Assembly (NCBI GenBank): GCA_902778935.1
Contig: CACYZT010000006.1
Location: 82,784 to 146,783, forward strand
Direction: 5' to 3'
Length of the DNA stretch: 64,000 nucleotides
From: an uncultured Bacteroidales bacterium
GTDB taxonomy: Bacteria; Bacteroidota; Bacteroidia; Bacteroidales; Paludibacteraceae
In this document: piece by piece, positions 763 to 50,733 of the stretch
Layout of the letters: each line of letters begins with the position of its first letter
Position numbering within the stretch: position 1 is the first letter of the stretch
Translations under genes and position numbers: made by a program
The notes under the pieces: generated by a model
Told to the model about the DNA's origin: nothing
The model's database searches: none
The model's input: the letters and a program-made list of their open reading frames with translations, nothing else

Positions 763-871
763 CTCGCCAGACCGGCCTGTCGGCCTGACAGAGTACAGAC
801 CGCCCTACGGGCTGACAGACCGTTACACTGACAGACAACAACTATTATTAACAAACATAAACTTAACTATT

Positions 872-1252
872 ATGGCAAAAGTAGAATGGAGTGCGGGAAT
901 CGACCATGTGTCGGGCGCACTGAGTAAACCCGGAAAGAATGGACAGCACAGTTGTGCAAAGATGCTGCTTGGCACGCACCGTACGGCAGCGACACAGAGC
1001 AGTGATTGCAACCGATTGTACCTGCGAAAGAAAGTGAAGCGTACCACACCGCTCAAACCGAAAGAGGTGGCAATTCGTCAGCGCTTCCAGGCCGTGCGTG
1101 CGATGGTCGCTGCGCGTAAGGAAGACCTGAGCAAGGTCACCCAGGACCAGATTGACTTCCTCGCCCAGAAGGACCTCGCCAACGGCAAAAAGACCATGAA
1201 CGCCTACCTCTGGCTCGTCTGCGGCAGAGAGTACGACGAGAGCCAAGACTAA
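872..1252 (+). CDS. Small protein of unknown function, MAKVE family copy 2 (126 residues)
   Basis: It starts with MAKVEWSAGIDHVSGALSKP and shares its first residues with the gene at 173. A basic middle part (LRKKVKRTTPLKPKE) is followed by a predicted helical region. The C-terminus is rich in aromatic residues and Cys (AYLWLVCGREYDE). It is soluble, with no signal peptide. The gene is the last of the small cluster and is followed by short repeats and a strong terminator. Function is unknown; two divergent copies side by side suggest a family under selection for variety. Confidence 0.65.
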   Translation: MAKVEWSAGIDHVSGALSKPGKNGQHSCAKMLLGTHRTAATQSSDCNRLYLRKKVKRTTPLKPKEVAIRQRFQAVRAMVAARKEDLSKVTQDQIDFLAQKDLANGKKTMNAYLWLVCGREYDESQD

Positions 1253-1398: not shown

Positions 1399-4005
1399 AT
1401 GCCTCGTACAACGTCAAAATCGAGAAATATAGGCTTGGAACCAACCGCTGAGAGAGCCATCAAAGTGGAGAAGGGTAGTTCGTGGGAGTCGTTCAAACGA
1501 TTCATCACTGCCCGTGAGACACGTATGGTCATCGGTATTCTGATGCTCACTTTTGCCGTTGTAGCCCTGCTGGCGTATGTCAGTTTCCTCTTTACCGGTT
1601 CGTACGACCAGGACCTGCTGTCCATGAGTCACGCTGACCGCATCGCTAACCGCGAGTTGATACGCAACTTGCTCGGCTTGCCCGGTGCTGCGCTGGCGCA
1701 GTTTATGATTGACGACAGTTTCGGCTTCGTGTCCATCCTGTTCGTGTTCATGCTTACCATCTATGCGTTGCGTCTGATGCACGTGTTCCGTGATATCCAT
1801 GCTATCAAGCTGTTCTGCGGTGGTACGTTTTGGGTTCTATGGGGTTCGACAGTGCTCGGTTTTGCGCAGCAGATGACCCACATGGGTCAGTTCCATTGGG
1901 GCGGTGCTTTCGGCGCATGGGCGGCTAAATGGCTGACCAGTTATGTGGCTATCACCGGTACCGTGCTGATTCTTACGGCGTTACTGGTTATCTTCCTTAT
2001 CGTGACCGACCCGCGCTTCATCGACCATTGCAAGGCTTTCGGCGAATGGTGCAAAAATCTCTTCGCGCGCAAACCTAAAGATAATAATGAGTTAACGGAC
2101 GAAGGGACGAACGGACAAACGGGCGAAAGTGGCGATGACGAGATTGTGCTTGACCTGCCGATTGTTCCGGAGAATAACGATAACGATAACGACGACGAAG
2201 TGCCTTTCACTATCGAACCGACCATAGAGGAAGAGGGACAAGAAGTTCCAGAGGTTCCGGAAGTTCAAGGGGTTCAAGGTGTTCTAGAGGTTACAGAGAC
2301 TACGGATGAGAACGGAGAACCCTTGGGCGATGCTCCGCTGCCTGCTGAGGAACCCGAGGAGAACGCTAACGCTGATGCAGAGTTGACCATCAACGATACA
2401 CCGGAAGAGGAGTTGTATGCCAAGGACCCGGACAAACTGCTTGAGAAACTCGGTCCGTACGACCCGCGCAAGGATTTGGAGTTCTATAAGTTCCCTTCGC
2501 TCAACCTGCTCAAAGTGTATGACAATGAGGCAGCTCCGGTGATTGACGAAGAGGAACAGCGCGCCAACGGAGCACGTATCGTGACCACGCTTCGCAACTA
2601 TGGCATAGAAATTGATAGGATACAAGCAACGGTCGGTCCGACCGTAACGCTCTATGAAATAGTGCCGAAAGCCGGTGTGCGTGTGGCGAAGATACAAGCG
2701 CTGGAGAACGATATCATGATGTCCCTCTCCGCGACAGGTATCCGTATCATCGCTCCGATGCCGGGTAAAGGAACTATCGGTATCGAAGTGCCGAACGAGA
2801 AGCCGCAGACCGTATCCATGCACTCCGTGCTGGCGTCCAAGCGATTCCAGGACGAGCAGAAAATGCGTCTGCCGATAGCCTACGGACGAACCATCACCAA
2901 CGAGGTATTCATGTTCGACCTCGCCAAGACGCCGCACTTGCTTGTGGCGGGTGCTACCGGAACCGGTAAGTCCGTTGCCATCAACGCTATCATCACTTCG
3001 CTCCTGTACAAGAAACATCCGGCGGAGCTCAAGTTAGTGATGGTGGACCCGAAGATGGTGGAGTTTGCGCCTTACAAACCGCTGCTCAAGCATTATTTGG
3101 CAGCCATGCCGGATACCGACCCTGAGCAGATCGTCATCACCGAGTGCGACCGCGTCATTAACACGCTCAACTCGCTTGTCATTGAGATGGAGAACCGCTA
3201 CAAGTTGCTCATGGATGCCGGTGTGCGTAACCTGGAGGACTACAACGACAAGTTCGTCAAACGTCGTCTGAACCCGAATAAACTGGTAGGCGACAGCTTG
3301 CATCACCAGTACCTGCCTTATATTGTCATCATCATCGATGAGTACGGCGATTTCATCATGCAGGCGGGCAAACAGGTGGAGACGCCGATAGCGCGTATCA
3401 CGCAGAAAGCGCGTGCCGTGGGTATGCACATGATTCTCGCTACCCAGCGTCCGTCCGTGAACATCGTCACGGGTGTTATCAAGGCGAATATCCCGACGCG
3501 TATAGCGCTGCGCACGCAGTCCGTCATCGACTCGCGTACCGTGCTGGATGCCAAGGGTGCGGAGCAGCTCATCGGACGAGGTGACAGCCTCTATGCCGGC
3601 AACGCCAGCATCACTCGTGTGCAGTGTGCGTTCGTTGATACACCCGAAGTGGATGCTATCGTAGGACATATAGCCAAACAGCAGCGCTATACCGAGCCGT
3701 ATCAGTTGCCGGAATACGTAGGCGAAGGCGGCGAAGGCGAGGCACTCGCACCGGGCAGCGTGGATATGAAACGTCTCGACCCGATGTTCGCTGACGTAGC
3801 GCGTTACGTAGTCACGAAGCAGGAAGGTTCGACCAGTCGTCTGCAGCGTGCTTTCGAGATAGGATACAACCGCGCCGGCAAACTGTCCGACCAACTCGAA
3901 GCGGCAGGCATCGTAGGACCGAACAAAGGACCTAAAGGCCGCGACGTGCTGATACAAGACTTGGACCAACTGGATAAACTGTTAGAAGAGCTGGGAGTGA
4001 GATAA
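1399..4005 (+). CDS. ftsK: DNA translocase FtsK/SpoIIIE family
   Basis: FtsK is a septal, membrane-anchored DNA pump that clears chromosome ends during division. The 868-residue protein has about four membrane segments in its first 200 residues, then an acidic, Glu/Pro-rich linker (roughly 230-330), then the motor. The Walker A motif GATGTGKS lies near residue 518 and the Walker B stretch IVIIIDEYGD near 642. A winged-helix gamma domain (TSRLQRAFEIGYNRAG) begins near 812. The start at 1399 was chosen because the promoter ends at 1380, so an upstream in-frame ATG at 1345 would lie inside it. It is followed by lolA-like and trxB genes on the same strand. Confidence 0.95.
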   Translation: MPRTTSKSRNIGLEPTAERAIKVEKGSSWESFKRFITARETRMVIGILMLTFAVVALLAYVSFLFTGSYDQDLLSMSHADRIANRELIRNLLGLPGAALAQFMIDDSFGFVSILFVFMLTIYALRLMHVFRDIHAIKLFCGGTFWVLWGSTVLGFAQQMTHMGQFHWGGAFGAWAAKWLTSYVAITGTVLILTALLVIFLIVTDPRFIDHCKAFGEWCKNLFARKPKDNNELTDEGTNGQTGESGDDEIVLDLPIVPENNDNDNDDEVPFTIEPTIEEEGQEVPEVPEVQGVQGVLEVTETTDENGEPLGDAPLPAEEPEENANADAELTINDTPEEELYAKDPDKLLEKLGPYDPRKDLEFYKFPSLNLLKVYDNEAAPVIDEEEQRANGARIVTTLRNYGIEIDRIQATVGPTVTLYEIVPKAGVRVAKIQALENDIMMSLSATGIRIIAPMPGKGTIGIEVPNEKPQTVSMHSVLASKRFQDEQKMRLPIAYGRTITNEVFMFDLAKTPHLLVAGATGTGKSVAINAIITSLLYKKHPAELKLVMVDPKMVEFAPYKPLLKHYLAAMPDTDPEQIVITECDRVINTLNSLVIEMENRYKLLMDAGVRNLEDYNDKFVKRRLNPNKLVGDSLHHQYLPYIVIIIDEYGDFIMQAGKQVETPIARITQKARAVGMHMILATQRPSVNIVTGVIKANIPTRIALRTQSVIDSRTVLDAKGAEQLIGRGDSLYAGNASITRVQCAFVDTPEVDAIVGHIAKQQRYTEPYQLPEYVGEGGEGEALAPGSVDMKRLDPMFADVARYVVTKQEGSTSRLQRAFEIGYNRAGKLSDQLEAAGIVGPNKGPKGRDVLIQDLDQLDKLLEELGVR

Positions 4006-4043: not shown

Positions 4044-4600
4044 AATTACTAATTATATTAACCGTATTGAGTTCGTTCCTGACGAATCTCGAGCAGAAGA
4101 CCTTGAAGTCGGATTTTTCCATCACGGTAACCGAAGAGGTCAATGCGCCGATGAATTTCCCCGGTTGGATTCTCATGCAAGGCGATAAGTTCCGGTTGGA
4201 GATGATGGATATAGAAGCGGCTTATGACGGCAAGACGATGTATATGTATTCGAGCAACACGGATGAGCTGACGCTCTCCAACCCGACCGAACAGGAGTTG
4301 CTCGAAGCCAATCCGTTCCTCTACGCCAAGGCGCTGGTTGATGTATGCAATATCGTGGAGAAAGCCAGCGGCGAGAACACGCTTATCACGCTCACGCCCA
4401 AAGACCAATCCATCGGCATCAACCGCTTTGTGCTTAAAGTGCGCAACGCAGACCTTATGCCGCTATCCGTCGAACTCAAAGAGGGCAAGAAAAATACGAC
4501 ACTCAAATTCAAAGAGCCGAAGTTTGTGCCAACAAACCCCGACTACATATTTGTACTTAAACCCAGTAAGAATACATACGTCATAGATATGCGATTATGA
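4037..4600 (+). CDS. LolA-like outer-membrane lipoprotein carrier
   Basis: This 187-residue protein has a short hydrophobic export signal (TKLLIILTVLSSFLTNLE). It then shows the LolA-type pattern of beta strands: a segment describing the processed substrate (FPGWILMQGDKFRLEM), then AYDGKTMYMYSSNTDELTL, and a hydrophobic C-terminal strand. LolA proteins carry lipoproteins through the periplasm to the outer membrane. The gene lies between ftsK and trxB, an order common in Bacteroidales, and its end overlaps the trxB start by 4 bases (ATGA), which indicates translational coupling. Confidence 0.8.
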   Translation: MTKLLIILTVLSSFLTNLEQKTLKSDFSITVTEEVNAPMNFPGWILMQGDKFRLEMMDIEAAYDGKTMYMYSSNTDELTLSNPTEQELLEANPFLYAKALVDVCNIVEKASGENTLITLTPKDQSIGINRFVLKVRNADLMPLSVELKEGKKNTTLKFKEPKFVPTNPDYIFVLKPSKNTYVIDMRL

Positions 4601-5529
4601 ACAGAGTAAAATGTATTATCATAGGCAGCGGACCTGCGGGTTATACTGCCGCTATATATGCTTCTCGCGCCAACTTACAGCCGGTGCTGATTGAGGGACC
4701 GCAACTCGGAGGACAGTTGACCACCACCACCGAGGTGGAGAATTTCCCCGGTTATCCCGATGGCGTGGAGCCCTTCACGATGATGGAGGATATGCGTCGT
4801 CAAGCGGAGCGCTTCGGTACACAGTTTGTTTCGGGTATCGTGACGAAGGTGGATTTCTCCGTTAGTCCGAAGAAAGTGATTGTGGAGGACACCGAGGAGT
4901 ACGAATCCGATGCTGTGATTGTAGCTACCGGCGCAAGTGCCAAATATCTCGGATTGGAGTCCGAGCGCACCTATCGCGGTCGTGGCGTGAGTGCCTGTGC
5001 TACCTGCGACGGATTCTTCTATCGCAAGAAAACTGTAGCCGTTGTAGGCGGTGGAGATACGGCTTGCGAAGAGGCAAGTTACCTCGCCGGACTTTGCGAG
5101 AAAGTGTATCTGATTGTGCGCAAACCTTACCTCCGTGCATCGGAGATCATGCAGCAACGTGTGCTGAACAATCCGAAAATAGAAGTGCTCTTTGAGCATA
5201 ACACCCTTCAGTTGACGGGTGAAGGAAAAGTGCAAGGAGCCGACCTCATCTATCGCAAAGGTGAACCTGACGAAGAGATGCGCCATATCGCTATCGACGG
5301 ATTCTTCCTGGCGATAGGGCATCATCCCAATACGGACCTGTTCAAGGATTATCTCAACCGCGATGCGGAGGGTTATATCCTCGTGGACGGAGACAGTCCC
5401 CGCACCAACGTACCGGGAGTGTTCGCAGCCGGCGATTGTGCCGACCCGCATTACCGTCAGGCGATTGTGGCAGCTGGTTCCGGTGCAAAAGCCGCTATCG
5501 AGGCTGACAAATATATCAAATCGCTCTAA
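4597..5529 (+). CDS. trxB: Thioredoxin-disulfide reductase
   Basis: The enzyme passes electrons from NADPH through FAD to thioredoxin in the cytoplasm. The 310-residue length is normal. The FAD-binding motif GSGPAGYTAA is at residues 9-18, the redox-active CATC is at 134-137, and the NADPH-binding VVGGGDTACEEA motif follows near 149. The C-terminal GVFAAGDCAD is the second FAD contact. All key residues are present. The start overlaps the lolA-like gene by 4 bases. Confidence 0.97.
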   Translation: MNRVKCIIIGSGPAGYTAAIYASRANLQPVLIEGPQLGGQLTTTTEVENFPGYPDGVEPFTMMEDMRRQAERFGTQFVSGIVTKVDFSVSPKKVIVEDTEEYESDAVIVATGASAKYLGLESERTYRGRGVSACATCDGFFYRKKTVAVVGGGDTACEEASYLAGLCEKVYLIVRKPYLRASEIMQQRVLNNPKIEVLFEHNTLQLTGEGKVQGADLIYRKGEPDEEMRHIAIDGFFLAIGHHPNTDLFKDYLNRDAEGYILVDGDSPRTNVPGVFAAGDCADPHYRQAIVAAGSGAKAAIEADKYIKSL

Positions 5530-43064: not shown

Positions 43065-46000
43065 CTATTTTTCTTCTCGTATTGGGCGAACATTAAAATA
43101 AATGCCATCACTGCCGCTACTAGTGTTTTGTACCCCATCATTAAAATTAACCGTATAGCAAATGCGATAAGACCCATTAAAATAATAAGAGGAAGACCAA
43201 TATATGCATGGGGCAGAAGAACTAGTAGTACTTGATGTAACTGTAACAAATCCTCCTATAGATGCTCTGAGTGCATACATTTGGTACAGTTCTTCCTTTG
43301 TCGGTAATCTCCAATCTGAATAGCCATATAGATACAAGCCCTCACAATACGTATCGGCTTGACTCCAAGTCATCAAATTCGGTGCATTAGGGGCTACTCT
43401 ATATGTTTTCTCGTTGAAAATAAAGGTGGGTAGAGAAAGATAATCCAAATCAACAGATACTTCATTCCCATAGGTTGTACCATTAGCATTAGTCGCATAG
43501 GCTCTTACATAAATGGTACCACTTATGGAAGAACTTATAGTTGAAGTATAATAACCTTTTCCCGTTCCATCAGAAGTATGTGTATATGTGGCAGATAAAT
43601 CAGGGTTAGGGAATGTTCCGTAACAAATTCCTCTTGCTAAAATAGCAGAGCCTCCGTCGTCTGTTACATTACCTCCGGATAAGAATGTTTGACCATTCTT
43701 GGTTATAGCCGTAGTAGTCACTGTTGGCAAACCATTCCCTGTAGTTAATGAGACTACTTTTCCATAGCCTGTTCCGATGCTATTTGTTGCATATGCCCGT
43801 ACATAGTAGGTAGTACTGACATCAACGTTGGTAATTACGGAAGAGAAGGTTCCTGTTCCGATACCAGCAGTTGTATAACTATCTTCAATAGTCGGAGTTG
43901 AGTTGGCCGTACTATAGCATATACCACGAGTTGTTATTGAGTAACCGCCATCATTTGTAATGGATCCTCCGGAAGAAATCTGTGTAGAGGTAGCTGTTGT
44001 TTGGGAAGTCGTTACAACAGGAAGACCATCATTCGTAGTAAAACTCTTTTGCTCACTATATGCTGTAGCAACATCTGTTGTTGCATAACCACGGACATAA
44101 TAAGTTGTATTAGGTGCGAGTCCCGTCATATTGCACAGATATGCAGTATTCATTTGTTTTCCCCCGGCAACAGTCTTGTTATCCGTAGTTGTTGGGTTCG
44201 GATTGCTACTCCAACATATACCGCAACTTTGCAAGGTAGCACTGCCAGCATCTGTAACTGTTACAGAGGTAGAAGCTGTCAGTGCAGTAATATTAGAGAC
44301 TGCATCTATAGAAACACTCGCGTTACCATCTTTAGTTTGAATCGACACAACATTTCCATATGCAGTTCCATTTTCGTTAGTAGCGTAAGCGCGAATATGA
44401 TAAGTAGTTGCCGCCGTCAATCCGGTAATGGATACATTAAAGGCACCATTTCCTTTTCCTCCCATCACTTTTTCGTCAGTAATAGTAGGTGCGGAGTTTG
44501 TGCTACTATAGCATACTCCTCGTTCCGTAACAGCATATCCACCATTATTTGTGACACTACCTCCTACTGCTATTGATGTAGCTGTAGATGTGGGAGATGT
44601 TGTGGAAACTGTTGCTAAACCATCTTTGGTCGTAAATGTTTTTTGCTCGCTATATCCTACTCCAAGGGAATTGACAGCGTACGCACGGATATAGTACTTG
44701 GTATTTAGAGCTAAACTCGTCAAACTACCTGTAAATGCACCAACACCTGTTCCAATGGCTACATGTTCAGATGTATTGGTCGGATATTGTGATGTACTAT
44801 AGCAGAAGCCTCGTTCGGTAATAGTAACGCCCCCATCGCCAGTTACATTTCCAAAACATGTCACGCTACTAGCAGTAGGTTCTCCTATAGAATCCAAAAT
44901 CACAACAGGTATGCCATTTTCTGTTTTGAAAGTACGTTCTTCTCCATAACTTGTACCTGCAGCGGTAGTTGCATATGCTCGTACGTGGTATGTGGTTTTG
45001 TCCTTTAAGTTTGTTAGATTACTTACAAATGTTCCCATACCGGTACCATTAGTTGTATGTGCTCCTTCAATAGTTGGCTGTGATTCTGTACCATAGCATA
45101 CGCCACGAGCAGTTACAGAAAGTGTTCCATTGTCCGTCACATTTCCTCCACATGTGGCCTTGACAGAACCAATGTTAGTAACAGCATCTGTGGTTACCGT
45201 TGGGAGGCCAGAAAGAGTCTTTATCTCAAACTGTTCGCCATATGTCGTTTCTGTTGCATTGGTTGCGTATGCACGGACATAATATGTAGTTCCATACACT
45301 AGTTTAGTAATATTACTCTTATAATCGCCTAATCCTTTACCGGCAGTAGAATGGTCATCTTCAATAGTCGGGTATTGTGTTGTTGCATAGCAGAAACCAC
45401 GCGCAGTAACAGGGATATCACAATCCGACACTACTGTTCCATACGCGGTGAAGCCAGTCGCGGTAATATTGTTGATAGAATCAGTTGTCACTACTGCCAG
45501 ACCATCCAACGTGGTAATAATAATCTGCTCACCATAAACAGTAGCCGTACTATTGGTTGCATAGGTACGCACATAGTAAGTTGTATTCTCGATAAGATTA
45601 TTAAGAGAACTTGTAAACTCTCCAATTCCCGAACCATCGTTGGTGCAATCATCATCGATTGTAGGGTCCGGTTGGCGACTCCAGCAAGTTCCTTTTTTAA
45701 TCACAGGATAACCACCATCACTCTCAACGCGACCTTTGCATTTTGCCGAGTGTGCCGTGATACGAATGATGGTATCCGTTGTTACGATGGGCACTCCTAA
45801 TTCTGTTGTGAACTTAACTTGTTTGCCATAAGCCGTACCTAAGCGGTTAGTGGCATATGCACGCGCATAATATATTGTGTTATGCTCTAAATCTTTCAAG
45901 TTGCTCGTGAATGCCCCCAAACCGGAACCATCCGTTGTATGCCGACTATTTATCGTAGGTTGTTGTTCCGTGCCATAACATACACCTCGTGCCGTAACTG

Positions 46001-46451
46001 TCAAACGCCCATCAGTTTTAACTTCTCCGCCTAATATAGCGCCATCGGCAGTTATATCCGAAACATTATTAGTTTCCACGGTCGGTAAAGCAGGACCCTC
46101 CACTTCAATTACGCCTAAATCTACTTCGGCTTGGCCATAACCTCCTAGTGCTACCTTTTTGGGAACACATGTTGAGTCCCCTGCCAAGAGGTAATAATTA
46201 CCATCAATCTCACTAACACGTACCTTAAGTGAGAATAGACCGCCAGCATCTGTTTGCGTCTGACAATGAGTATTATAACCATCCGTTACCTTAACTGTCA
46301 AATCGGCAAACGGATTGGTCGTGTTGATATACACAACTTGTCCACGATATGTGACAATATCGTTCATATCACTTCCGCACCCGATAAAGAAGGTACTGAT
46401 GCTAACAATAATTATGGCAATAATGCCAAACCAAGTGAATCTAGTTTTCAT
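43065..46451 (-). CDS. Lipoprotein with nine FN3-like repeats and a C-terminal DUF1566/FISUMP-type domain
   Basis: The 1128-residue protein has a signal ending in the lipobox FFIGC with Cys25. After an N-terminal carboxypeptidase-regulatory-like part (TYRGQVVYINTTNPFADLTV), nine repeats of about 97 residues follow. Each has the pattern RGxCY, then TTYYVRAYATN, then G-x-x-YG. The C-terminal domain holds YSDWRLPTKEELYQMY and CIYWSSSYY, motifs of DUF1566/FISUMP domains. Such proteins are usually surface adhesins. Repeats 1-9 differ enough that recent expansion is unlikely. Confidence 0.85.
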   Translation of the reverse strand: MKTRFTWFGIIAIIIVSISTFFIGCGSDMNDIVTYRGQVVYINTTNPFADLTVKVTDGYNTHCQTQTDAGGLFSLKVRVSEIDGNYYLLAGDSTCVPKKVALGGYGQAEVDLGVIEVEGPALPTVETNNVSDITADGAILGGEVKTDGRLTVTARGVCYGTEQQPTINSRHTTDGSGLGAFTSNLKDLEHNTIYYARAYATNRLGTAYGKQVKFTTELGVPIVTTDTIIRITAHSAKCKGRVESDGGYPVIKKGTCWSRQPDPTIDDDCTNDGSGIGEFTSSLNNLIENTTYYVRTYATNSTATVYGEQIIITTLDGLAVVTTDSINNITATGFTAYGTVVSDCDIPVTARGFCYATTQYPTIEDDHSTAGKGLGDYKSNITKLVYGTTYYVRAYATNATETTYGEQFEIKTLSGLPTVTTDAVTNIGSVKATCGGNVTDNGTLSVTARGVCYGTESQPTIEGAHTTNGTGMGTFVSNLTNLKDKTTYHVRAYATTAAGTSYGEERTFKTENGIPVVILDSIGEPTASSVTCFGNVTGDGGVTITERGFCYSTSQYPTNTSEHVAIGTGVGAFTGSLTSLALNTKYYIRAYAVNSLGVGYSEQKTFTTKDGLATVSTTSPTSTATSIAVGGSVTNNGGYAVTERGVCYSSTNSAPTITDEKVMGGKGNGAFNVSITGLTAATTYHIRAYATNENGTAYGNVVSIQTKDGNASVSIDAVSNITALTASTSVTVTDAGSATLQSCGICWSSNPNPTTTDNKTVAGGKQMNTAYLCNMTGLAPNTTYYVRGYATTDVATAYSEQKSFTTNDGLPVVTTSQTTATSTQISSGGSITNDGGYSITTRGICYSTANSTPTIEDSYTTAGIGTGTFSSVITNVDVSTTYYVRAYATNSIGTGYGKVVSLTTGNGLPTVTTTAITKNGQTFLSGGNVTDDGGSAILARGICYGTFPNPDLSATYTHTSDGTGKGYYTSTISSSISGTIYVRAYATNANGTTYGNEVSVDLDYLSLPTFIFNEKTYRVAPNAPNLMTWSQADTYCEGLYLYGYSDWRLPTKEELYQMYALRASIGGFVTVTSSTTSSSAPCIYWSSSYYFNGSYRICYTVNFNDGVQNTSSGSDGIYFNVRPIREEK

Positions 46452-48662: not shown

Positions 48663-48732
48663 TGTTTAATAGATTTTAGTTTTGTGCCTACTCACTTGTG
48701 GCATTTCGGCATACTCCGTTTATTATGTTTGG

Positions 48733-49197
48733 TTATTCACTTATTACAAGACGGACAGAGCAACCCCAGCAATTGGATTCTTCAAGGATCTGTCTTTGGT
48801 TGTCGGACAATACATAGACATACGCGTAGTTGCTTCCGGCATTGTCCAATGTCCATAGTACTGCGGCAGAGCCTTCTTTATGCAAATCTTCGTCGCAGTC
48901 CTTATACCCCTCAAACCGAAAATATATTGAATTTTGATTTGGTCCGGTTACGCGATAACCTTTTCCTGTCCATTTCCAGGTACAATTATACAGAAGCTCT
49001 TTTACTTGCGCTCTGTTGGGCAAGGCCTCGCCATAATAGTATCGAGCTGAAGGATAAGTGTAATACCCTGGCTCATCAACAGCTTTCCAGTAGGTTCCGC
49101 TTGGTAACCCTAAATCGACATAACCAACCGGGATGTCCTTTGCAGACATCGAGATGGATACGATTATCATCGCAATGATCGATATAATCTTTTTCAT
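48733..49197 (-). CDS. Exported FISUMP-like domain protein (154 residues)
   Basis: A signal peptide (MKKIISIIAMIIVSISMSA) precedes YVDLGLPSGTYWKAVDEPGYY, a hallmark of Bacteroidales FISUMP/DUF1566-like domains. Then come RAQVKELLYNCTWKWTGKGYRV and a Cys-rich end (ESNCWGCSVRLVISE). It is a single domain of the kind that caps the large lipoprotein at 43065. It lies downstream of the rod-shaped RNA structure. Confidence 0.75.
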   Translation of the reverse strand: MKKIISIIAMIIVSISMSAKDIPVGYVDLGLPSGTYWKAVDEPGYYTYPSARYYYGEALPNRAQVKELLYNCTWKWTGKGYRVTGPNQNSIYFRFEGYKDCDEDLHKEGSAAVLWTLDNAGSNYAYVYVLSDNQRQILEESNCWGCSVRLVISE

Positions 49198-49264
49198 GGT
49201 CGCTATATATTTTATGTTCGTGCGCGCACATATAGAAAAGCGCAGACTTCGCTATTGCTCATCT
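49198..49264 (-). promoter_or_regulatory. Leader with a GTGCGCGCAC palindrome ahead of the FISUMP-like gene
   Basis: In the last 60 bases before the start codon the perfect palindrome GTGCGCGCAC (49220-49229) is flanked by CTATAT and ATATAG, which can pair. This would fold a hairpin directly ahead of the ATG. Confidence 0.4.
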
Positions 49265-49446
49265 ACGCACAAGGACCTTAGCACTTGTCCCTCCAGTCAA
49301 ATAAACAACAATGAAACCTACGCCGATATGACAAACCGCCTGCGAAGAAACAGCAGAGTCGGTACAAAAGTCATACCCGTAGGCATCTATTGTTACTTTG
49401 CTTTTGACTGGAAATAAACTAAAAGTGTGCTAAGCTTTTTGTGCGT
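49265..49446 (-). ncRNA. 182-nt rod-shaped structured RNA candidate
   Basis: Paired arms follow each other inward: ACGCACAA with TTGTGCGT (49265-49272/49439-49446), CTTAGCAC with GTGCTAAG, TCCAGTCAAA with TTTGACTGGA (49292-49301/49403-49412), AACAAT with ATTGTT, CCTACG with CGTAGG, TATGAC with GTCATA, ACCG with CGGT. Together they give a long rod with internal loops, like 6S-type RNAs. A promoter 90 bases upstream on the minus strand makes that the likely strand. No tmRNA or RNase P consensus is present. Either a separate RNA or a 5' leader is possible. Confidence 0.45.
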
Positions 49447-49534
49447 CAAATACAAAGCGTCAATAAACGCCATTCAATATGTAAAGAACCCACCACCATC
49501 CACCGCTTAACACGGCTTCGGCGTAAATTCGGCG

Positions 49535-49566
49535 ACAAAGGTACAACAAATTTTTGATATATGCAA
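49535..49566 (-). promoter_or_regulatory. Bacteroidota-type promoter ahead of the rod-shaped RNA
   Basis: On the minus strand TTG (49566-49564) is followed after 20 bases by TACCTTTGT (49543-49535). Confidence 0.78.
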
Positions 49567-49820
49567 ATTTGTAAAGCTGTTTTTGCAATTTTTAAGCGAA
49601 ATGTAACAAAAAAGCAACCTTATGGCTGCTTAAGAGTTGTCCCATTTTACTCGACTTTGGCTTTCTCCAATATATGAGTTCATTTGCTACTTGTTTTCGC
49701 TACTTCACCGAGTCATTCTCGAATCATTCTCGAATCAATCTCGGTCCATTCTCGAGTCATTCTCGAGAGATAACATAGAAAAAGTGCTCAGTTTTACGTC
49801 TCGGGCTGGGGACGATATTA
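49567..49820. other. Gene-free stretch with an 11-bp repeat array
   Basis: No gene is seen. It holds the five-copy 11-base array at 49710-49764 between the DUF3990 module and the upstream promoter. Confidence 0.5.
49710..49764. repeat. 11-bp tandem repeat, five copies
   Basis: The units GAGTCATTCTC, GAATCATTCTC, GAATCAATCTC, GGTCCATTCTC and GAGTCATTCTC follow at exact 11-base spacing. Confidence 0.9.
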
Positions 49821-50006
49821 TTAAATCGCTTGAGCGAGATATTCATCGCCCATTAGGTACAACCCCGTTGCAGGATCGTGAAGGTCCTTGCTTAATGGAG
49901 ATGTATAGAACAATTCAAAAGCGCGAGAGGCGCTAACGCCTTTGCGTTCGCTAATGCGTGTTACAACACGACCTATCTTATTCCACATCAATACATCGCT
50001 TAGCAT
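49821..50006 (-). CDS. DUF3791-like small protein (61 residues)
   Basis: This third gene of the module begins MLSDVLMWNKIGRVVTRISE; an alternative ATG at 49988 starts with MWNKIG. It ends in HDPATGLYLMGDEYLAQAI. The RAFELFYTSPLSKDLHDPATGLY part matches DUF3791-type proteins. Its start overlaps the DUF3990 stop by 7 bases. A small partner gene after the ADP-ribosyltransferase-like gene is a common feature of such loci. Confidence 0.65.
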   Translation of the reverse strand: MLSDVLMWNKIGRVVTRISERKGVSASRAFELFYTSPLSKDLHDPATGLYLMGDEYLAQAI

Positions 50007-50485
50007 TTGATTGCCTCCTTAAAATTCAAGTATTTATCTATCGCTTCCTGGTTCAAAATGCAAATCTGATGATTTGGTTGGTGCTTGCTCAACTCTTGCA
50101 GGGCGTAGTCAGCACTTACTGTTCCTGCAATATAACCCTCCACCATATCAATCACACGGTCATTGGCAATGCCGCCTTCAATACAATCATATTCTATCCA
50201 AGGCTTTTTGCCTGTTCGACTATTAGCAATGAAATTGAGCCAATCGGCATCGTAATGCGGGAAAAACAAATATCGATAGTTGGCGCGGATAGCATCTATA
50301 TCTAAGTCATATACAGACAAAATCTTATCACCCTTGCGCTGACGAGCCATTCTATCAGCCCAAAGCTCTGCTTGACTTCGCAAAAGAGTCACATAAAATC
50401 CTTTCCCAAAGTCTAAACCTTCGCGACCGGCACTAACCAGCGGATTAGTAATCGGCTCTGTTCCTCCATGATATACTTCAATCAT
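50000..50485 (-). CDS. DUF3990 family protein, ADP-ribosyltransferase-like
   Basis: The 161-residue protein begins MIEVYHGGTEPI and has GLDFGKGFYVTLLRSQAELWADRMA, the core of DUF3990. The family shares features with ADP-ribosyltransferase folds (an N-terminal H or Y in YHGG, then F-x-K-G-F-Y-x-T and a later acidic residue). It may be the toxic part of a toxin-antitoxin module. The start at 50485 overlaps the upstream DUF3791 stop by 4 bases (ATGA), indicating coupled translation. Confidence 0.78.
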   Translation of the reverse strand: MIEVYHGGTEPITNPLVSAGREGLDFGKGFYVTLLRSQAELWADRMARQRKGDKILSVYDLDIDAIRANYRYLFFPHYDADWLNFIANSRTGKKPWIEYDCIEGGIANDRVIDMVEGYIAGTVSADYALQELSKHQPNHQICILNQEAIDKYLNFKEAIKC

Positions 50486-50733
50486 ACGCCTTGTTTTTGT
50501 TCCCACAATTCGAGGGTGTAGATAATATCTTTTGTAACATTCTCGCGGCTCTCACTATGTAGCACTTCATAGCAGGGGATAATGTATTCATCTATTAGAT
50601 TTACGCGCGCCATGCGACGATAAATTTCGTCTGCCGGCTGTTGCAAAGCAGAAGCTACCGACTCCACACAAGAGGCCGTGAAGATATTCCGACTTTCCGC
50701 AGATGAGGGATTGTATTTATAAGGCTCACTCAT
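50482..50733 (-). CDS. DUF3791 family protein (83 residues)
   Basis: The protein contains RNIFTASCVESVASALQQPADEIYRRM and ends with YTLELWEQKQG, typical of DUF3791. It precedes DUF3990 with a 4-base overlap. The start codon at 50731-50733 is preceded directly by 16 A residues on the coding strand, so the 17-base A run including the ATG sits at the start site. This could allow slippage or set translation strength. Confidence 0.75.
   Translation of the reverse strand: MSEPYKYNPSSAESRNIFTASCVESVASALQQPADEIYRRMARVNLIDEYIIPCYEVLHSESRENVTKDIIYTLELWEQKQGV

Follow-up and report, generated by a model that had tools for sequence, protein, structure and literature searches.

The window, a 64,000-nt stretch of a contig from an uncultured bacterium of the Paludibacteraceae (Bacteroidales), carries on its minus strand a gene for a 154-aa protein with a signal-like N-terminus (48733-49197), behind which genes on the same strand continue down to 43065. 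Ahead of this gene an earlier note had described a rod of 182 nt, a promoter just upstream of it and a gene 70 bases downstream. We recover all of these: the rod measures 182 nt from base to base (49265-49446), the promoter has the Bacteroidetes form, for which the consensus is TTTG/TANNTTTG, and the rod base is followed after about 70 nt by the gene, whose start is at 49197. The FISUMP-like label that the note gave to the protein is not confirmed, as neither Pfam nor NCBIfam gives a match at E 0.001. That account leaves out three things: a segment at 49240-49263 that can pair with the 3′ arm of the rod and runs straight into a U-run (49236-49239), another at 49445-49471 that can pair in the same way with the 5′ arm, and the existence of further copies, which make the rod a multi-copy family. 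Judged from the promoter at 49536-49567 and the gene start at 49197 (minus strand), the RNA would begin near 49530 and the transcript would run into the gene. The features are:

49536-49567, minus strand: promoter of the Bacteroidetes form, with TTTG at 49564-49567, a 20-nt spacer and TACCTTTG at 49536-49543
49483-49530, minus strand: 5′ domain, comprising segment 0, a hairpin and a G-rich strand
49519-49530, minus strand: segment 0, GAATTTACGCCG, complementary to segment 3
49445-49471, minus strand: segment 1, which pairs with segment 2 (90.6% of cells paired; 87.2% order-wide)
49265-49446, minus strand: rod (z −6.19 for 49265-49528; covariation in the core and order-wide alignments)
49439-49446 with 49265-49272, minus strand: rod base helix
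49427-49435 with 49276-49284, minus strand: second helix of the rod
49379-49408, minus strand: segment 2, partner of segment 1 or, as 5′ arm of the rod, of segment 3
49379-49408 with 49295-49324, minus strand: rod helix 2:3, formed by segments 2 and 3
49370-49378 with 49325-49332, minus strand: hairpin at the rod tip
49295-49324, minus strand: segment 3, the hub strand, which is either the 3′ arm of the rod or the 5′ arm of the terminator
49240-49263, minus strand: segment 4, 3′ arm of terminator helix 3:4
49236-49239, minus strand: U-run behind the terminator helix (at least four T in 80 of 92 copies)
48733-49197, minus strand: first gene behind the leader, 154 aa, signal-like N-terminus

Around these features, a DUF805b-like hairpin lies between the first and second genes of the operon (48685-48719, minus strand; RF02914, 20.8 bits, E 0.00044, below the cut-off of 35.6 bits); DUF805b also occurs above the cut-off in locus L082 (39.3 bits) and near it in L002 (33.8 bits). 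The product of the last gene of the operon (43068-46451, minus strand) is 1128 aa long and shows matches of the Lcl_C and fn3-like kinds. Upstream of the leader, 50003-50733 (minus strand) holds DUF3990 and DUF3791 genes, which we take to be a toxin-antitoxin-like pair. Right behind the U-run, at 49220-49235 (minus strand) in the window and in other copies too, stands an alternating purine/pyrimidine tract, the median share of alternating steps being 0.74 in the 24 nt after the U-run versus 0.52 at random places.

Folded on the minus strand, 49265-49528 reaches −94.7 kcal/mol, where shuffled versions average −68.8 (z −6.19, none of 200 shuffles as good), and the rod proposed earlier is thus genuine and above chance. 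The plus strand likewise folds (z −5.61, 0 of 200 shuffles), because an inverted repeat folds on either strand.

In its own genome the rod has three matches, of which the second is about 80% identical and the third has diverged (locus L003). Matches occur in 105 of 178 genomes of the genus and in 135 of 358 genomes of the family, spread over 10 of its 33 genera, and complete relatives are present in other genera as well. Full searches of fifteen genomes of the genus gave between 0 and 8 matches per genome, counting separately some pieces that belong to a single element. When named genomes were scanned with a pattern that fixed 25 positions of the rod tip (GGGTATGAC and GTCATATCGGCGTAGG), 94 stretches were returned. 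Among the 80 of these that were listed, 78 belong to Bacteroidales/Paludibacteraceae, one to Bacteroidia and one to Holosporaceae; the last may be mis-binned. Our core set of 95 distinct copies comprises the window copy, six from the genome search and 88 from the pattern scan, so that constancy at the fixed tip sequences reflects how most core copies were selected. For order-wide relatives we used BLAST with a diverged member as query, which matched 17 of 393 genomes of the order, 13 of them outside the family and mostly over partial lengths; complete elements in loci L173, L174, L177 and L178 represent three other families of the order. A phylum-wide pattern search matched none of 395 genomes, which is weak evidence for absence because the same pattern misses the rod's own genome and finds just 56 of 182 known loci. 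Plasmid, phage and viral collections hold no match to the window form of the element. With a looser pattern, two viral contigs match (11651-11696 of L181; 1879-1924, minus strand, of L182), in both cases to the order-wide motif of segment 1 and the base helix. The rod at 1501-1765 (minus strand) of L018, and that of L109, carry a tip with a second copy of the arm GTCATATCGGCGTAGGT.

The copies keep their place between promoter and gene. Of the 95 core copies, 83 have their nearest downstream gene on the same strand and one has it on the opposite strand; for 11 none was found, and 10 of these have less than 600 nt of locus remaining. The median distance from U-run to gene start is 104 nt. The nearest upstream gene is on the same strand in 56 copies, on the opposite strand in 21 and not found in 18. 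A TTG...TANNTTTG promoter precedes 77 of the 92 copies with enough upstream sequence, versus 3.2% of mononucleotide-shuffled upstream regions, at distances to the rod that cluster at 51-58, 73-88 and 105-124 nt with three outliers, and a run of at least four T follows the element in 80 of 92 copies. Among order-level loci the motif could be placed in 24 of 29, and by reading a same-strand ORF lies behind it in all 24. No recognisable promoter was found for the remaining 15 of the 92 core copies. In a group of 15 elements from 14 loci, mostly promoterless, 10 sit at most 135 nt behind a same-strand ORF, including that of L003; a cassette array is one possible explanation of the promoterless copies. 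Several of these have, at the place of the 5′ domain, a repeated hairpin CGCTGG..GACAGCG followed by TAAAAAAGCGG (L130 2322-2350 and 4537-4565; also L073, L097, L114, L122 and L125). In L130 two rods (2350-2588 and 4565-4805) lie 2.2 kb apart, both behind small genes and with alike sequence after each.

The leader can pair in two states, one with helices 1:2 and 3:4 (the terminator) and one with helix 2:3 (the rod); as segments 2 and 3 are shared, helix 2:3 and its competitors 1:2 and 3:4 are mutually exclusive. When the helix regions were folded separately, each against 60 shuffles of itself, z fell below −2 in 72 (1:2), 76 (rod) and 74 (3:4) of 76 aligned copies, with medians of −3.77, −7.22 and −3.76, respectively. 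Compensatory change, which the earlier note had set as the test for the rod, is plentiful. In the core alignment 96.1% of rod cells are paired and changes on both sides of a pair occur in 336 cells versus 97.5 in shuffled alignments (0 of 500 shuffles), all eight pairs of the base helix being among those with such changes. The order-wide alignment (33 sequences, of which 25 are not in the core set) gives 223 such cells versus 116.4 (0 of 500).

The terminator helix 3:4 is paired in 99.5% of core cells versus 45-51% when slid, and helix 1:2 in 90.6% versus 28-48%, the structures in these comparisons being taken from the window copy and therefore biased in their own favour over the slid versions. 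Changes in the core terminator are nearly all one-sided, with four both-sided cells versus 0.8; order-wide there are 52 versus 13.6 (0 of 500 shuffles). About a third of terminator cells (535 of 1587) are G-U pairs, and these fix the strand, since the other strand would have A-C mismatches. Covariation in helix 1:2 is weak in the core set (12 cells versus 7.5, reached by 27 of 500 shuffles); order-wide, 28 both-sided cells versus 15.7 exceed all 500 shuffles, while 72 of the 500 shuffles have as many further pair types. A pairing of segments 1 and 4 was tried as well and set aside: 93.9% of core cells are paired, but order-wide its covariation is mostly no better than shuffles.

The 5′ domain (49483-49530) is a possible sensor. 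UACGCCG or a close form of it is found in 70 of 87 copies, flanked by a short closing helix, a hairpin whose sequence varies and a G-rich strand; the hairpin was found in 70 of 70 copies by a liberal search. The beginning of segment 3 contains the complement of UACGCCG. Among 25 relatives, 64% have a duplex of segments 0 and 3 with z < −2, and the median energy with a copy's own segment 3 is −22.2, just slightly better than the −20.35 with the segment 3 of other copies; among 86 core copies the share is 59% and the two medians are −21.7 and −20.9. In L133, L136 and L138, from two genera, CAGCG in segment 3 is matched by CGCUG in the 5′ domain. Such complementarity is suggestive of a fourth pairing, 0:3.

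An attenuator calls for a leader between promoter and gene on one strand, for an intrinsic terminator helix with a U-run in that leader and for a conserved helix that excludes the terminator. Here the leader has a promoter in 77 of 92 copies and a same-strand gene in 83, the terminator is 99.5% paired and followed by a T-run in 80 of 92, and rod helix 2:3, 96.1% paired, excludes it. We consider it likely, from comparative sequence evidence, that the element is a cis-acting transcription attenuator at the 5′ end of the mRNA, in which the rod prevents termination. The earlier note had offered two interpretations, a 6S RNA and a leader controlling the gene behind it. The leader is backed by the promoter, the strand, the U-run, the position of copies elsewhere and the three competing conserved helices, and the 6S RNA finds no such backing.

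A free-standing small RNA ending at the U-run, with the rod as its 6S-like or sponge-like product and the gene merely a neighbour, would account for the promoter of its own, the terminator-like end and the very stable rod. We regard it as improbable, given that, where a downstream gene lies in reach (84 copies), it shares the strand of the element in 83, versus 56 of 77 upstream, and that a plain small RNA does not need conserved alternative helices. Nor is there a 6S family match, either at the gathering score in the window or at E up to 5 in 49100-49650. A 6S RNA binds RNA polymerase, serves as a template for pRNA and is normally single-copy; the rod has its three matches in one genome and a same-strand gene behind 83 of 95 copies. 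The note had also suggested looking for a 6S RNA elsewhere in the genome. This gave a weak match to Bacteroidales-1, a suggested 6S RNA, away from the rod (G000:C13:16753-16952, locus L180; 39 bits against a cut-off of 60). In another genus, locus L154 has sub-threshold matches to Bacteroidales-1, 6S-Flavo and Acido-Lenti-1; those to Bacteroidales-1 and 6S-Flavo, at 779-942 (plus strand), precede a relative of the rod by about 0.6 kb and are possibly due to chance.

The order of the helices, 1:2, 2:3 and 3:4, is that of trp leaders, and the window copy has a 26-codon open frame from an ATG at the edge of segment 1, as would suit a ribosome-controlled attenuator in which a leader peptide translated over segment 1 frees segment 2. 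That ATG is present in just 12 of 76 aligned copies, and the lengths of the stretch differ by non-multiples of three, in all three frames, which makes this mode of control very improbable. We hold it equally far-fetched that the element is a mobile repeat, a MITE or attC-like hairpin whose fold matters as DNA and whose place in front of genes is incidental. Several dispersed copies per genome do stand beside unrelated genes, some of them behind toxin-antitoxin-like genes, and the two copies of L130 have alike sequence behind them; against this stand the strand bias (83 same versus 1 opposite downstream), the fixed promoter spacing, the wide covariation and the G-U pairs in 535 of 1587 terminator cells, which the other strand would turn into A-C mismatches.

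For the attenuator, sequence comparison shows the helices, the U-run and their positions, and the kinetics and the signal are our inference, as follows. Helix 1:2 would form first on the emerging RNA. Segment 3, as it emerges, would take segment 2 off segment 1 to build rod 2:3, which would withhold segment 3 from segment 4 and let RNA polymerase continue into the gene. If that exchange were delayed, or helix 1:2 held by a bound molecule, 3:4 would form before the U-run and transcription would stop; polymerase speed, a ligand or a protein could bring about the delay or the hold. The likeliest site of action for the signal would be the variable 5′ domain, whose UACGCCG could pair with segment 3. 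In predicted folds of growing transcripts from 67 copies, 1:2 appears in 65, followed by 2:3 in 63 once segment 3 is out, and complete transcripts are predicted to fold as the rod in all 67. Of the two states, the rod is predicted to be the more stable in all 70 copies compared, exceeding the terminator by a median of 7.9 kcal/mol. The terminator stem has a long loop. At equilibrium the RNA should therefore be in the rod state and transcription let through, so that termination would need a kinetic or bound-factor argument.

The genes behind the leaders are enriched in putatively exported products over those before them. By a simple signal-sequence test, which the window gene passes, signal-like N-termini are encoded by 41 of 68 genes behind rods versus 55 of 285 upstream genes (Fisher p 1.2e-10). 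No shared function of the controlled genes was found, the commonest Pfam family accounting for 5 of 72 downstream proteins. Upstream genes are mixed, and 51 of them include toxin-antitoxin-like ones (three ParE, two HEPN and one each of YafQ, HipA_C and AbiEii). We lean, by a narrow measure, towards an undescribed attenuator class of several Bacteroidales families that puts many unrelated, mostly exported proteins under one signal and is built on a hub strand with three partners: the RNA 5′ end, the rod arm and the terminator arm. If so, uncultured Bacteroidales of rumen and gut would set the expression of several exported proteins together through one RNA switch, and which signal stops or frees transcription here, and whether it does so through the 5′ domain, becomes a testable question. 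It would also be a clear case of one strand kept pairable with more than one partner, and because the hub strand must keep several partners, these would drift mainly via G-U pairs.

No Rfam family reaches threshold for the window copy, and permissive thresholds on 49100-49650 give nothing convincing. Nine further loci yielded three DUF805b matches, a separate element, and a sub-threshold GP20-b; in nineteen more loci, four matches concern tRNA or DUF805b and the rest are sub-threshold. The available parts of the open-access literature, including a review (PMC5418344), the unrelated PMC8151066, PMC8040213 and PMC2864571, contain no description of the leader family; the supplements of the last two may hold an overlapping unnamed candidate.

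Among known systems, 6S RNA and Bacteroidales-1 (RF01693) resemble the leader in size, rod shape and having a promoter of their own, whereas the leader matches neither their sequence nor their structure models, occurs in several copies and sits before genes. DUF805b RNA (RF02914) is likewise structured and occurs in leaders within this clade and these operons, but it is a 35-nt hairpin, separate from the rod and beside it in some loci. The leader would work like a riboswitch-type or trp-type attenuator, a likeness that does not show membership of either class. With riboswitches and protein-responsive leaders it shares the 5′ position, alternative helices, a terminator-like end and a gene directly downstream, and it differs from them in that one class stands before many unrelated genes per genome and has no Rfam match. 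With trp-type attenuators, including Bacteroid-trp (RF01692), it shares the segment order 1:2, 2:3, 3:4, but it does so without a conserved leader peptide or an Rfam match, and in front of unrelated genes.
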